The translations under genes were made by a program, and so were the position numbers. A DNA stretch of 64,000 nt from Acidobacteriota bacterium. Its GTDB lineage: Bacteria; Acidobacteriota; Vicinamibacteria; Marinacidobacterales; Marinacidobacteraceae. The stretch is from contig JAJEAO010000033.1 of the NCBI GenBank assembly GCA_022822745.1, positions 16,630 through 80,629 of the forward strand, read 5' to 3'. A model generated the notes under the pieces. It worked only from the letters and a program-made list of their open reading frames with translations, was not told the DNA's origin and did not search any database. Shown one piece after another: positions 4,006 to 8,866 of the stretch (within the stretch, counting starts at the first letter, position 1; every line of letters begins with the position of its first letter).

Positions 4006-5016
4006 TCAGGCGGCCAGCACTCGAGCCCGGAAACCGCGATCTTCGCCCGCCGTCACGATGGCGCCCTCGGGGATCTTCGCGTCGAGGATGGCGAGGCCGA
4101 CGCCCGGGAGGTCGGGGGGAAACGCGCGGGGCCGATCGAAACCGGAAGTGAACCGCCCCGCCGGGCGTCCTTCGAGTCGGAGCCCGGCGGCCGGCGGCGG
4201 AGTCGCCGTTCCGGCCGGGAAGACGAGGCGGCGCAGGAGGCGCGGGATCCGGCCGCGATGCGCCTGGCGGGCGACGTACTCCTGACCGATGTAGCAGCCC
4301 TGACCGAGCCGGGCGTGGGCGGCGAGGCCGCACTCGGCGACTCGGGAGGCCTCGTCGAGCTCGGATCCCCACCGGGGTTCGCCGGCGGCGATGCGGAGGT
4401 AGCCGCGTTCCTCCGGGCGGGCCTCCGGACCGGACCGGCGGCCGAGGGACGCCGCGGCGTCCACGAGCCCGTTCGGAGCGTCGAGGAAACGAAGCCGCCA
4501 CGCCGGCCAGGGCCGGAACAGCCGTCGGATCACGAGCGTGGCGCCGCCGTCGCCGGGGAGATCGGCGCCCGACCCGGGGGGAAGCGCGGAGAGTTCGAGG
4601 CCTTCGGGGATCGGCCACTCCAGGTCGGCGAGGACATCGCCGATCGTCCGGTGCGCCCCGAACCCCTGCAGGAGCAGACTCCCGTTCGGTTCGCCGTCGA
4701 GCGGCGTCAGCTCCACATCGTCCGCGATCCGGTAGCGGTCGAGGCCGGTCAGGAGCGCGTCGCGCCGACGCCAGTCGGTCTCCAGCAAGATCGCATCCGA
4801 CGTCGTGGAAGCCGTGCCCGCCGCGATCAGCGCTCCCTTCGGAGTGAGCAGCGCCGTGCGCGAGACGCCGCCGACCGGCGGAACCTGCCCGGAGAGGATG
4901 CGCCGGAGGAAATCGGCCCGGTCCCGCCCGGTGACGCGGATCGCCTCGCTGCGGCGCGCCCGGCGCCAGCGCGCCGGCAGATCCCGGGGAATGTCGAAAC
5001 CCCGCGGCGCGGCCAT
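4006..5016 (-). CDS. ygfZ: YgfZ/GcvT-domain folate-binding protein (Fe-S cluster repair / tRNA-modification factor)
   Basis: A 336-residue cytoplasmic protein of the YgfZ/CAF17 family, which binds folate and supports assembly or repair of some Fe-S enzymes. The diagnostic motif near residue 240 reads GCYIGQEYVARQAHRGR (family signature KGCYxGQE), with Gln in place of the usual Lys before Gly. The N-terminal GcvT-like fold (RADFLRRILSGQV, then LLTPKGALI) is also intact. It is first in a two-gene minus-strand unit with the amidohydrolase lipoprotein. Only 43 bp separate it from the divergent class V aminotransferase-fold gene. Confidence 0.9.
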   Translation of the reverse strand: MAAPRGFDIPRDLPARWRRARRSEAIRVTGRDRADFLRRILSGQVPPVGGVSRTALLTPKGALIAAGTASTTSDAILLETDWRRRDALLTGLDRYRIADDVELTPLDGEPNGSLLLQGFGAHRTIGDVLADLEWPIPEGLELSALPPGSGADLPGDGGATLVIRRLFRPWPAWRLRFLDAPNGLVDAAASLGRRSGPEARPEERGYLRIAAGEPRWGSELDEASRVAECGLAAHARLGQGCYIGQEYVARQAHRGRIPRLLRRLVFPAGTATPPPAAGLRLEGRPAGRFTSGFDRPRAFPPDLPGVGLAILDAKIPEGAIVTAGEDRGFRARVLAA

Positions 5017-5059
5017 GAGGGCTCTATGCTACCGGCCCGCCGCTGCGGCGAACCGACCC

Positions 5060-6199
5060 ATGAGAGCTTTCGTCCCCCTGGTTCGCGAGGCCTTCGGCGA
5101 GGCCGTCGAGGCCCCGCGGCTCGACTTCGACCCGGCGGCCGGGCCCCGCTCGCTGCTCCCGCGTCCGGCGGCGGCGGACGCCGCGGCGCTGGACGACCTG
5201 CGCGAGTCGCTGGCGTGGTTCTGGAACACGAACGCCGACTGGGCGGGGAGGCAGGTGGCGGTCGGGGCTTCCTACGGAGCGCTGGTGGCCGCGCTCGTCG
5301 AGGTCTTCGGGCTGCGGCGCGGCGAGGCGGTCGTGCTGCCCCTGTCGGAGCCGGATGACCGCCTGGAGGCCTGGCGGGAAGCTCTCCCGGAGGGCGTGCG
5401 GATTCGGGAGTGGCGGCCGGATCGGCGGGGAAATCTCCCCGTCGCGAACCTCGACGCCCTGGTGGACGGGAACACCCGGATCGTGGTGCAGACGAAGGCG
5501 TGTCCAGTGACCGGGGCGCTGAACGAGACGATCCCGGTAGCGCAGAAGTTCGCGGGGACTCCGGTTCGGGTCGTGGCCGAGGCGAGCCATTTCCTCTCCC
5601 ACGGCTCGCTCGACATCCGCAACCTCCGTTGCGACGCGCTGATCGCGGCGGCGGACGGTCTGTTCGGCGCGCAGGGCGCGGCGCTCTGGCTGCGGGATCC
5701 GCCGGCCCGTCGCGAGCGGGGGGCCGTTGGCCCGGCGACCGTCGCGGCATGGGGCCGCTCGCTCGCCTACGTGGAGCGACTGGGGTCGTCGGAAGACGCA
5801 CCGGTCGCGCCTCCGTCGGAGAAGTTCGGCCGGCGGGAGGCGATGCGGCGGGGAATGCAGGCCATCCGGCAGGAGGAGCGGATCCTCGCGCGTCGGATGC
5901 TGCGGATCCTGGGGCGTTTCCGGCGCGTCCGGATCCTCGGGGAGTCGGACGAGGTTCGGGCCGCCGCCCGAGTGCCCACCTTCACCTTCGTGGTGAGGGG
6001 GAGAGAAGCGGAGGCCGTCGGCGACGCCCTTCGGCGGTCGGGCGTCGAGGTCGGGACCGGCTCGCTCGGGTCCGCCGCCACCCTGAAGGCCCTGGGGGTG
6101 GACCCCGGGGCGGGAGCGGTGCGGGTCGCGGTGGCGCACTACCACACCGCCGATGATGTGCGCCGCTTCGGCGACTGTCTCGGCGCCGCGCTGGGCTGA
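5060..6199 (+). CDS. Class V aminotransferase-fold protein lacking the PLP lysine (probable pseudoenzyme)
   Basis: A 379-residue protein with the fold of cysteine-desulfurase-like class V aminotransferases. The large-domain landmarks are recognisable: the ASYGALVAAL cofactor loop, the EASHFLSHGSLDIRNLRCDAL segment (normally 'VDAVHYAPH...CDF'), and a C-terminal small domain ending in VAHYHTADDVRRF. Where the family has the Schiff-base lysine (typically CSAYKFFGPH), this protein reads AAADGLFGAQ, so the lysine is Gly200. The PLP-ring aspartate is also replaced by Glu. It is therefore unlikely to act as a normal PLP enzyme. The frame is open further upstream; ATG 5060 was chosen because translation before it overlaps ygfZ. 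Confidence 0.82.
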   Translation: MRAFVPLVREAFGEAVEAPRLDFDPAAGPRSLLPRPAAADAAALDDLRESLAWFWNTNADWAGRQVAVGASYGALVAALVEVFGLRRGEAVVLPLSEPDDRLEAWREALPEGVRIREWRPDRRGNLPVANLDALVDGNTRIVVQTKACPVTGALNETIPVAQKFAGTPVRVVAEASHFLSHGSLDIRNLRCDALIAAADGLFGAQGAALWLRDPPARRERGAVGPATVAAWGRSLAYVERLGSSEDAPVAPPSEKFGRREAMRRGMQAIRQEERILARRMLRILGRFRRVRILGESDEVRAAARVPTFTFVVRGREAEAVGDALRRSGVEVGTGSLGSAATLKALGVDPGAGAVRVAVAHYHTADDVRRFGDCLGAALG

Positions 6200-6314: not shown

Positions 6315-7985
6315 GTGAAGTCCCGTTTCGTCGCATCCGTCGTTGTTCTGTTGGGGGTTTCGGCTCTCCTGGCCTGCCAGCCCTCGGGAGAGGCTCCGCC
6401 GCCGGCGCCTGCCGGCGAGCCGGGGACGCACGCCGATCTGGTGGCGCTGTTTCACGAGTGGCGCGAGTTCGAGCGGCCGGATTTCGTGGACGGAGTGCCC
6501 GACTACACCGAGCCGGCGATGGCGAGGCAGCGCGCCGAGTTGCCGGCGTGGCGGGCGCGACTGGATGCGATGGCGCCGGAGAGCTGGCCGGTCCCGGAGC
6601 AGGTGGACTGGCATCTCGTGCGGGCGGAGATGAACGGACTCGACTTCGACCACCGGGTCCGGCGGCCGTGGGCGCGGGATCCGGCGTTCTACGTGACGAT
6701 CTTCGCGGCCGAAAGCGACGTGCCGGCCCACGAGGGGCCGGTGATCCATGGCTGGGTGGATCTGTGGACCTACGACTACCCGCTCTCGGAGGCGGACGCC
6801 GCCGAGCTGGCGGAGAGGGTCGGCGCGATTCCGGCGCTCCTCGACCAGGCCCGGAGCAACCTCGCGGCGTCGAACGCCCGGGATCTGTGGCTCGGCGGGT
6901 TGCGGGCGTTCCGGAACCAGGCGGCCGATCTCGCCGCCTTCGGCGAACGGGTCGCCGGGACGAGCGCTGATCTCGACACCGCGGTCGCCGAGGCGATCGC
7001 CGCCAGCGACCGCTTCCGCGAGTTCCTCGACGCGGAGTCGGATTCGAAGACGGGGCCTTCGGGCGTGGGAGCGGAGAACTACACCTGGGCCATGCAGCAC
7101 GTGCATCTCCTCCCCTACACCTGGGAACAGCAGGTGGCGCTGCTTCGGCGGGAGCTGGCGCGCTCGCACTCCTCCATGCTCCTCGAGGAGAACCGGAATC
7201 GCGGGCTTCCCGAACTCGAGCGCATCGCCTCGGCGGAGGAGTTCGACCGGCGGCTGAACGAATCGGTGGATCGCTACATGGCGTTCCTCGACCGGGAGGA
7301 GGTGCAGACGGTCGAGCCGTGGATGGACCCGGCGCTTCGGGCGGTGAACGGGACGTTCGCTCCGCTGGAGAACCCGGACGATCTGCGGAACTTCTTCAGC
7401 GAAGTGAACTACCGCGATCCGGACGCCTTCCGGCCCCACATGCACCACTGGATCGAACTGGCGGCGATGCGGGAGACCCCGCACCCGAGTCCGATCCGGG
7501 CGGTCCCGTCGCTGTTCAACATCTTCCAGGCCCGCTCCGAGGGACTCGCCACCGGCGTGGAGGAGATGTTCATGCATCTCGGGCTGCTCGAGGGGTCGCC
7601 GAGGTCGCGCGAGCTGACCTGGATCATGCTCGCGCAGCGGGCCGCTCGGGCGATCAGCGGGCTGAACCTCCACGGCGGCGAGTTCGACATGGAGGAGGCG
7701 GTGGGGTACGCCATGGAGTGGACGCCGCGGGGCTGGCTCACCGAGGGCGCGCTGGTGCGGGGCGAGCAGAGCCTCTATCTGCGCCAGCCTGGGTACGGGA
7801 CCAGTTACGTCGTCGGGAAACTGCAGATCGAGGAGCTGCTCGCCGAGGTGGCGATCCAGGACGGGGACGACTTCAGCGTGAAGGACTTCTTCGACCGGTT
7901 CTACGCATCGGGCGTCATCCCGATCACGCTGGTCCGGTGGGAGATGACGGGAGAGAAGGATCCGGTTCTGGATCTCCGCCCGTAG
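6315..7985 (+). CDS. DUF885 family lipoprotein (probable metallopeptidase-like hydrolase)
   Basis: A 556-residue DUF885 protein. The GTG start at 6315 is preceded by a GGAGG Shine-Dalgarno at 6301-6305. It yields a lipoprotein signal peptide with lipobox LLAC (Cys21). DUF885 marks are present: an N-terminal helical part, EGLATGVEEMFMH (family EGWAxYxE, the putative metal-binding helix) and the terminal QPGYGTSYVVGKLQIEEL block. The tryptophan of EGW is changed to Leu. Members are thought to be zinc-type peptidases or esterases, but this protein's substrate is unknown. It stands alone, followed by the inverted-repeat element at 8001-8133. Confidence 0.88.
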   Translation: MKSRFVASVVVLLGVSALLACQPSGEAPPPAPAGEPGTHADLVALFHEWREFERPDFVDGVPDYTEPAMARQRAELPAWRARLDAMAPESWPVPEQVDWHLVRAEMNGLDFDHRVRRPWARDPAFYVTIFAAESDVPAHEGPVIHGWVDLWTYDYPLSEADAAELAERVGAIPALLDQARSNLAASNARDLWLGGLRAFRNQAADLAAFGERVAGTSADLDTAVAEAIAASDRFREFLDAESDSKTGPSGVGAENYTWAMQHVHLLPYTWEQQVALLRRELARSHSSMLLEENRNRGLPELERIASAEEFDRRLNESVDRYMAFLDREEVQTVEPWMDPALRAVNGTFAPLENPDDLRNFFSEVNYRDPDAFRPHMHHWIELAAMRETPHPSPIRAVPSLFNIFQARSEGLATGVEEMFMHLGLLEGSPRSRELTWIMLAQRAARAISGLNLHGGEFDMEEAVGYAMEWTPRGWLTEGALVRGEQSLYLRQPGYGTSYVVGKLQIEELLAEVAIQDGDDFSVKDFFDRFYASGVIPITLVRWEMTGEKDPVLDLRP

Positions 7986-8149: not shown

Positions 8150-8866
8150 ATGAGCAGCACACGACCGCGAGAGGAGTTCGACTGGCGGGCGGCCCACGAC
8201 CGGGTCTGGGCGACGCTCGACTGGCTGGCGGAGCAGAACCGCGAGCACGAGCGGTTGCTCAAGCTGCGCGCCAGGGAGGCGGAGCAGCGCGCCAGGGAGC
8301 AGGACCGACGCAACGAGGAAGCCGACCGGCGCGCCAAGGAAGCCGACCGGCGCGCCAAGGAGCGCGCCAAGGAGCAGGACCGGCGCGCCGAGGAGGCGGA
8401 CCGGCGCGGGAAGGAGCACGACCGGCGGCTCCGGAAGCTGGACAACCTGTTCAACTCGCAGTGGGGCAAGCTCATCGAGGCGCTCGTGGACGGCGATCTG
8501 GTCCCGCTGCTCCGGGCGCGCGACATCAAGGTGACCCACACCTCGACGAACATGAAGCTGGAGTTCGAGGGCTACCGGCGCGAAGTGGACATCGTCGCGG
8601 TGGACGGCAGCGTGGTCGTGGCGGTCGAGGTCAAGACGACCCTGAAAGTCGCGGACGTGGACTATTTCCTCGAGATGCTGCCGCACTTCCAGGACCTGGC
8701 GCCGGAGTACCGGCACCACACGGTGTACGGGGCGGTGGCCTACCTGAAGGCGGACCAGTCCTCGGACGCGTACGCGCAGAAGAAGGGGCTGTTCGTGATT
8801 CGCGCGACCGGGAGCAGCGCGAGCATCACGAACCGCGCGGAGTTCCGCCCTCGGGCGTTCGGCTGA
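8150..8866 (+). CDS. Coiled-coil protein with PD-(D/E)XK nuclease-like domain (DUF3782-like)
   Basis: A 238-residue protein. Residues about 25-100 form a highly charged coiled coil rich in RAKEADRRAKE-type repeats. The C-terminal half has the restriction-endonuclease-like core: YRREVDIVAVDG followed by VVAVEVKTTL, which supplies the D...ExK catalytic pattern. Such DUF3782-type proteins are common in genomes with many mobile elements, and their target is not known. The coiled coil contains a 21-bp DNA duplication (8318-8338 and 8339-8359), so its length may vary between strains. It starts 17 bp after the inverted-repeat element. Confidence 0.8.
   Translation: MSSTRPREEFDWRAAHDRVWATLDWLAEQNREHERLLKLRAREAEQRAREQDRRNEEADRRAKEADRRAKERAKEQDRRAEEADRRGKEHDRRLRKLDNLFNSQWGKLIEALVDGDLVPLLRARDIKVTHTSTNMKLEFEGYRREVDIVAVDGSVVVAVEVKTTLKVADVDYFLEMLPHFQDLAPEYRHHTVYGAVAYLKADQSSDAYAQKKGLFVIRATGSSASITNRAEFRPRAFG
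8318..8359 (+). repeat. Two tandem 21-bp repeats inside the coiled-coil coding region
   Basis: The 21-bp block at 8318-8338 is repeated exactly at 8339-8359, each copy encoding EADRRAK. A third, diverged copy follows after 8380. Because the unit is in frame, gain or loss of copies would lengthen or shorten the coiled coil without breaking the gene. Confidence 0.8.

Follow-up and report, generated by a model that had tools for sequence, protein, structure and literature searches.

A lysine-less class V aminotransferase-fold protein encoded divergently from ygfZ in one order of Acidobacteriota

In the structure of DndA, the PLP contacts named as strictly conserved are Thr70, His99, Asp175, Ser197, His199, and Lys200, and the carboxylate site consists of Asn150, Gln178, and Arg353 (PMC3343029). 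FGM3 catalyzes a PLP-dependent retro-aldol reaction (PMC10367076), and Rv3778c of M. tuberculosis (PDB 3cai), which lacks the PLP lysine, has been described as related to cysteine desulfurases but noncatalytic (PMC12910592). Lysine-less proteins of the class V fold are therefore already known as a kind. In E. coli, [4Fe-4S] enzymes such as MiaB and RimO require YgfZ to be normally active, and exactly what YgfZ does is unsettled (PMC10002905). Here, we describe a lysine-less clade that spans one order of Acidobacteriota, its pairing with ygfZ, and an invariant lysine, Lys146, all of which are new as far as the sources that we searched show. We found no published account of a YgfZ-aminotransferase pairing in the literature searched.

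We analyzed a 64,000-nucleotide stretch of an Acidobacteriota genome (here, the window) that encodes a 379-aa protein divergently from a ygfZ homologue (Table 1). The start sites of orthologues line up with the ATG of the 5060-6199 frame, and we consider an alternative in-frame ATG upstream, at 5015, a less likely start. We found that the protein matches Pfam Aminotran_5 at 5.4e-20 (72 bits, above the cut-off of 21.5). The top NCBIfam model was TIGR01976 (am_tr_V_VC1184, "cysteine desulfurase-like"), at 1.3e-40 and 140 bits, which is below the cut-off of 352 and places the protein outside that family; a copy from the sister family scored 238 bits against the same cut-off. The top sequence relatives in the PDB were FGM3, Rv3778c, and SufS. 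An AlphaFold2 model built from 25 diverse rows had a pLDDT of 89.3 and a pTM of 0.90 and was used throughout, as ten close orthologues gave a pLDDT of 51. With Foldseek, the predicted model superposed on SufS at a TM of ~0.79, and Rv3778c ranked 8. Because the profile matches, the PDB relatives, AlphaFold2, and Foldseek all point the same way, we regard the fold assignment as sound, and by profile and predicted architecture the protein belongs to the class V aminotransferase superfamily (fold type I).

Table 1. Positions in the window of the lysine-less gene, its diagnostic codons, and its neighbors
Feature	Positions	Strand	Evidence or distribution
YgfZ homologue, 336 aa, GCYIGQE motif	4006..5016	-	TIGR03317 45 bits (cut-off 49); divergent partner in 14/14 genomes
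43-bp intergenic stretch common to the two divergent genes	5017..5059	.	Sequence
Lysine-less class V aminotransferase/SufS-fold protein, 379 aa	5060..6199	+	ORF, Pfam/NCBIfam profiles, AlphaFold2, Foldseek
Codon 146 (Lys), new invariant lysine of the clade	5495..5497	+	K in 13/13 clade members, 0/44 relatives
Codon 174 (Glu), place of the PLP-ring Asp	5579..5581	+	D in 44/44 relatives; E/D/N in clade
Codon 200 (Gly), place of the lost PLP Schiff-base lysine	5657..5659	+	K in 44/44 relatives, 0 in 13 full-length clade members
Codons 253-274, clade motif S..(F/Y).RR..MR.GMQ.IR..ER	5816..5881	+	Invariant residues; kept in both families
DUF885 protein	6315-7985	+	Downstream of the pair in 10/10 family genomes, ~83% identity in those compared

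An earlier note, made from the sequence of the window, had described the rest of the fold as intact and under coding constraint. The first part holds roughly, except that shortening or deletion affects both the N-terminal NxH segment and the hairpin that follows the lysine strand. The second part is borne out by a median pairwise dN/dS of 0.18 among eight congeneric orthologues, which indicates purifying selection, and by GC contents of 0.79/0.55/0.89 at the three codon positions of the gene. Between-genus dN/dS values (0.4 to 0.6) were close to saturation and were left unused.

To compare the cofactor site, we placed 44 dereplicated lysine-bearing relatives by profile alignment. As the earlier note had claimed, Gly200 stands at the place of the Schiff-base lysine and Glu174 at that of the PLP-ring Asp; all of the relatives have the lysine and the Asp. 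Gly at position 200 is unique to the window protein; the other members of its family have Glu, and the sister family has Pro, Leu, or Thr. At position 174, some orthologues have Asp and the sister family has Asn. We found that the losses extend across the pocket. The stacking His, the substrate-site Asn, and the phosphate-cup Thr, each present in 44/44 relatives, are replaced by Pro98, Pro149, and Gly73; the phosphate Ser (40/44 relatives) is Ala197; Asp199 occupies the phosphate His position; and the substrate-site Gln is likewise lost in the alignment. The catalytic Cys of SufS and IscS is also absent, and the C-terminal loop reads GSLGSA at 333-338. A Cys occurs at 338 in some orthologues and is not conserved.

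By alignment, the Arg of the carboxylate site is the sole DndA-listed PLP or carboxylate residue that the window protein retains (Arg355). It is retained in the window's family and lost in the sister family, and its persistence in the window's family counts against a PLP-free reading. Nonetheless, no orthologue has a lysine at the conserved place, and the ring, stacking, and phosphate residues are replaced, which is not the pattern of a PLP-dependent class V enzyme. We conclude that the window protein is very probably not a PLP Schiff-base enzyme and, judging from the residues lost, we infer that it would not bind PLP.

We also asked how widely the loss is shared. An orthologue is present in 10/10 genomes of the window's family, the other nine being 50 to 57% identical to the window protein, and in 4/4 genomes of the sister family at ~30 to 34% identity. 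The lysine is absent from every one of these, so close orthologues that keep it were not found in either family. One sister-family copy is clipped by a contig end and was omitted from the tree, in which the remaining 13 lysine-less rows formed one group with a support of 100/99. A search of 193 genomes of the class at 1e-30 added three matches, all of them lysine-bearing proteins of one further family. These three (L063, L064, and L065) are the best-scoring lysine-bearing relatives in the class, and L063, the one that was scanned, clearly belongs to TIGR01976 (479 bits). FGM3-like chemistry is possible for them, and they may be lyases instead of desulfurases. Across 396 sampled genomes of the phylum, the best 19 other relatives all have the lysine, and none of these is flanked by ygfZ. 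A contig search with the single window protein as the query returned no relatives, and one with the orthologue alignment returned nine loci, which their records place in Acidobacteriota MAGs; one scan of viral contigs found no relatives.

Because the lysine is absent from all orthologues and kept in the 44 relatives, we take the protein to be an old, lineage-wide pseudoenzyme and not a recently broken copy. The distribution of the loss is compatible with a single origin in one order. The proposal that this is a pseudoenzyme is thus strongly supported by a clade-wide loss, by the replacement of almost all of the PLP and substrate site, and by purifying selection.

The earlier note had also remarked on the divergent position of the gene relative to ygfZ, and the genomes examined make this stronger than the window could reveal. 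The arrangement recurs in all 14 genomes of the two families, which have no other tested neighbor in common. Eight other neighbors in the window were tested, and none is present in the four sister-family loci. All ten genomes of the window's family have the order ygfZ, lysine-less gene, DUF885; the DUF885 gene is absent from the sister-family loci. We examined eight ygfZ loci in other families of this class, and in none does an aminotransferase-fold gene adjoin ygfZ. The window genome has one ygfZ that we found, and the gene is single copy in 13/14 genomes of the order. The exception, G001, has two, the second being a YgfZ-like gene (L094; contig C204:6526-6849) with no aminotransferase-fold neighbor, which may be a paralogue or a contaminant.

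Most orthologues of the window YgfZ at the same locus exceed the TIGR03317 cut-off, and the YgfZ proteins of the sister family are 31 to 34% identical to that of the window. The window YgfZ reads QGCYIGQE, with Gln replacing the Lys of KGCYxGQE; other members of its family have Arg or Lys, and the sister family has Lys. Two further observations concern gene content around these loci. In other families of the class, a glycosylase gene of the HhH-GPD (MutY/endonuclease III) type lies near ygfZ in L086 and L090, the two loci in which this neighbor was scanned with Pfam, and glycosylase-like proteins were seen by eye near ygfZ in L087, L092, L093, and L098. In the window, 8150-8866 (+) encodes a protein of 238 aa whose long N-terminal half is repetitive and rich in arginine and glutamate, and which gives a weak, subthreshold nuclease-like (Hjc) match.

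Elsewhere in the window genome, contig C68 carries a canonical SufS (552 bits) and two SufB/SufD-core genes. These separate genes indicate that the window protein does not stand in for a desulfurase that the cell lacks. Taken with the pairing in 14/14 genomes and the loss of the PLP residues, this suggests a model in which a class V aminotransferase-fold protein gave up PLP chemistry and would have been retained as a nonenzymatic pseudoenzyme, paired genetically with YgfZ. It would most likely serve as a protein partner or regulator in the step of [4Fe-4S] protein maturation that depends on YgfZ, and its former PLP pocket would have been remodeled, with the new invariant Lys146 nearby. We consider this model as a whole, a PLP-free pseudoenzyme acting in YgfZ-dependent Fe-S protein maturation, to have about an even chance of being correct. 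That the protein works with YgfZ, a claim based on gene linkage, we put at slightly short of even. The earlier note had raised a role in binding or regulation as well as direct involvement in Fe-S metabolism, and we treat both as inferred. A more specific version, which we think unlikely, is that in one order the protein serves the YgfZ/IBA57 branch of Fe-S protein maturation as an additional, dedicated component, whose rebuilt pocket and new lysine bind another ligand or YgfZ itself.

The main rival to the partnership model is a pseudoenzyme that merely shares the intergenic region with ygfZ and has a function unrelated to Fe-S, for example, the binding of anionic metabolites. The adjacency would then be inherited synteny or a consequence of the shared promoter region, which alone can preserve a divergent arrangement. 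The intergenic stretch is short in the window, and DUF885 is also kept adjacent in the window's family. Moreover, a single order accounts for all 14 genomes, and the pairing may thus have arisen once and been inherited since. We found no sigma-70 consensus around the start or in the intergenic stretch, an absence that carries little weight in this phylum. The many arginines conserved in the clade (R258, R259, R263, R270, R274, and R304) would suit an anionic ligand. In contrast, the other tested neighbors were reshuffled between the two families and the ygfZ pair was not. We regard the unrelated function as possible and lean against it.

The residues gained by the clade bear on a bolder alternative, in which the lysine migrated and Lys146 makes a Schiff base in a protein that binds PLP or another carbonyl ligand. 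Every clade member compared has Lys146 (13/13), and none of the 44 relatives does. It follows a predicted strand (139-145) and lies three residues ahead of the position of the lost Asn, which by sequence position places it near the pocket. It is also the sole conserved lysine of the four in the window protein; K163, K255, and K343 were considered as alternatives and rejected, as none is conserved. As for another lysine having taken over the PLP site, the position of Lys146 is not homologous to that of the catalytic lysine. Because the remainder of the cofactor site has been lost (the phosphate cup, the stacking His, and partly the ring Asp), we consider a migrated lysine improbable.

Finally, the assemblies are fragmented and of the metagenome type, and the pair diverges faster than its neighbor (~57% identity to the sister genus for the window protein and ~44% for YgfZ versus ~83% for DUF885), but we reject a decaying gene or an assembly artifact as highly improbable, given frames free of internal stops, a dN/dS of 0.18, the loss of identical residues in 14 genomes, and new motifs conserved across families.

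This clade offers a clean natural case in which the cofactor site of a PLP-fold protein has been lost; the loss fits one origin, extends across the pocket, and came with new invariant residues. The constant back-to-back placement with ygfZ in one order suggests that an old enzyme has been reused as a nonenzymatic partner. The chemistry of YgfZ in Fe-S assembly is unsettled, and a desulfurase-fold neighbor in every sampled genome of the order provides a concrete handle on it. These findings also call for caution in annotation, and such genes should not be named aminotransferases or cysteine desulfurases.

Among known systems, the closest lysine-bearing relatives by profile and sequence are the TIGR01976 proteins and FGM3 (PDB 9x4u), which, unlike the window protein, retain the lysine and the PLP site. 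SufS has the fold in common with the window protein, as seen in the superposition of the predicted model (TM ~0.79), but the window protein lacks both the PLP lysine and the catalytic Cys, and the hairpin region past the lysine strand is deleted. The most similar case is Rv3778c, which has the same fold and no PLP lysine and is 23% identical to the window protein over the structural alignment. Rv3778c differs in that it retains the ring Asp; its residue is Trp where the lysine would be and Ser where the clade has Lys146. It branches outside the clade, and a joint clade was rejected with a p-AU of 0.026, which disfavors a shared origin and is moderate evidence because Rv3778c has a long branch and a partial sequence. 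The loss of the lysine in Rv3778c thus looks independent of the loss in the clade described here.
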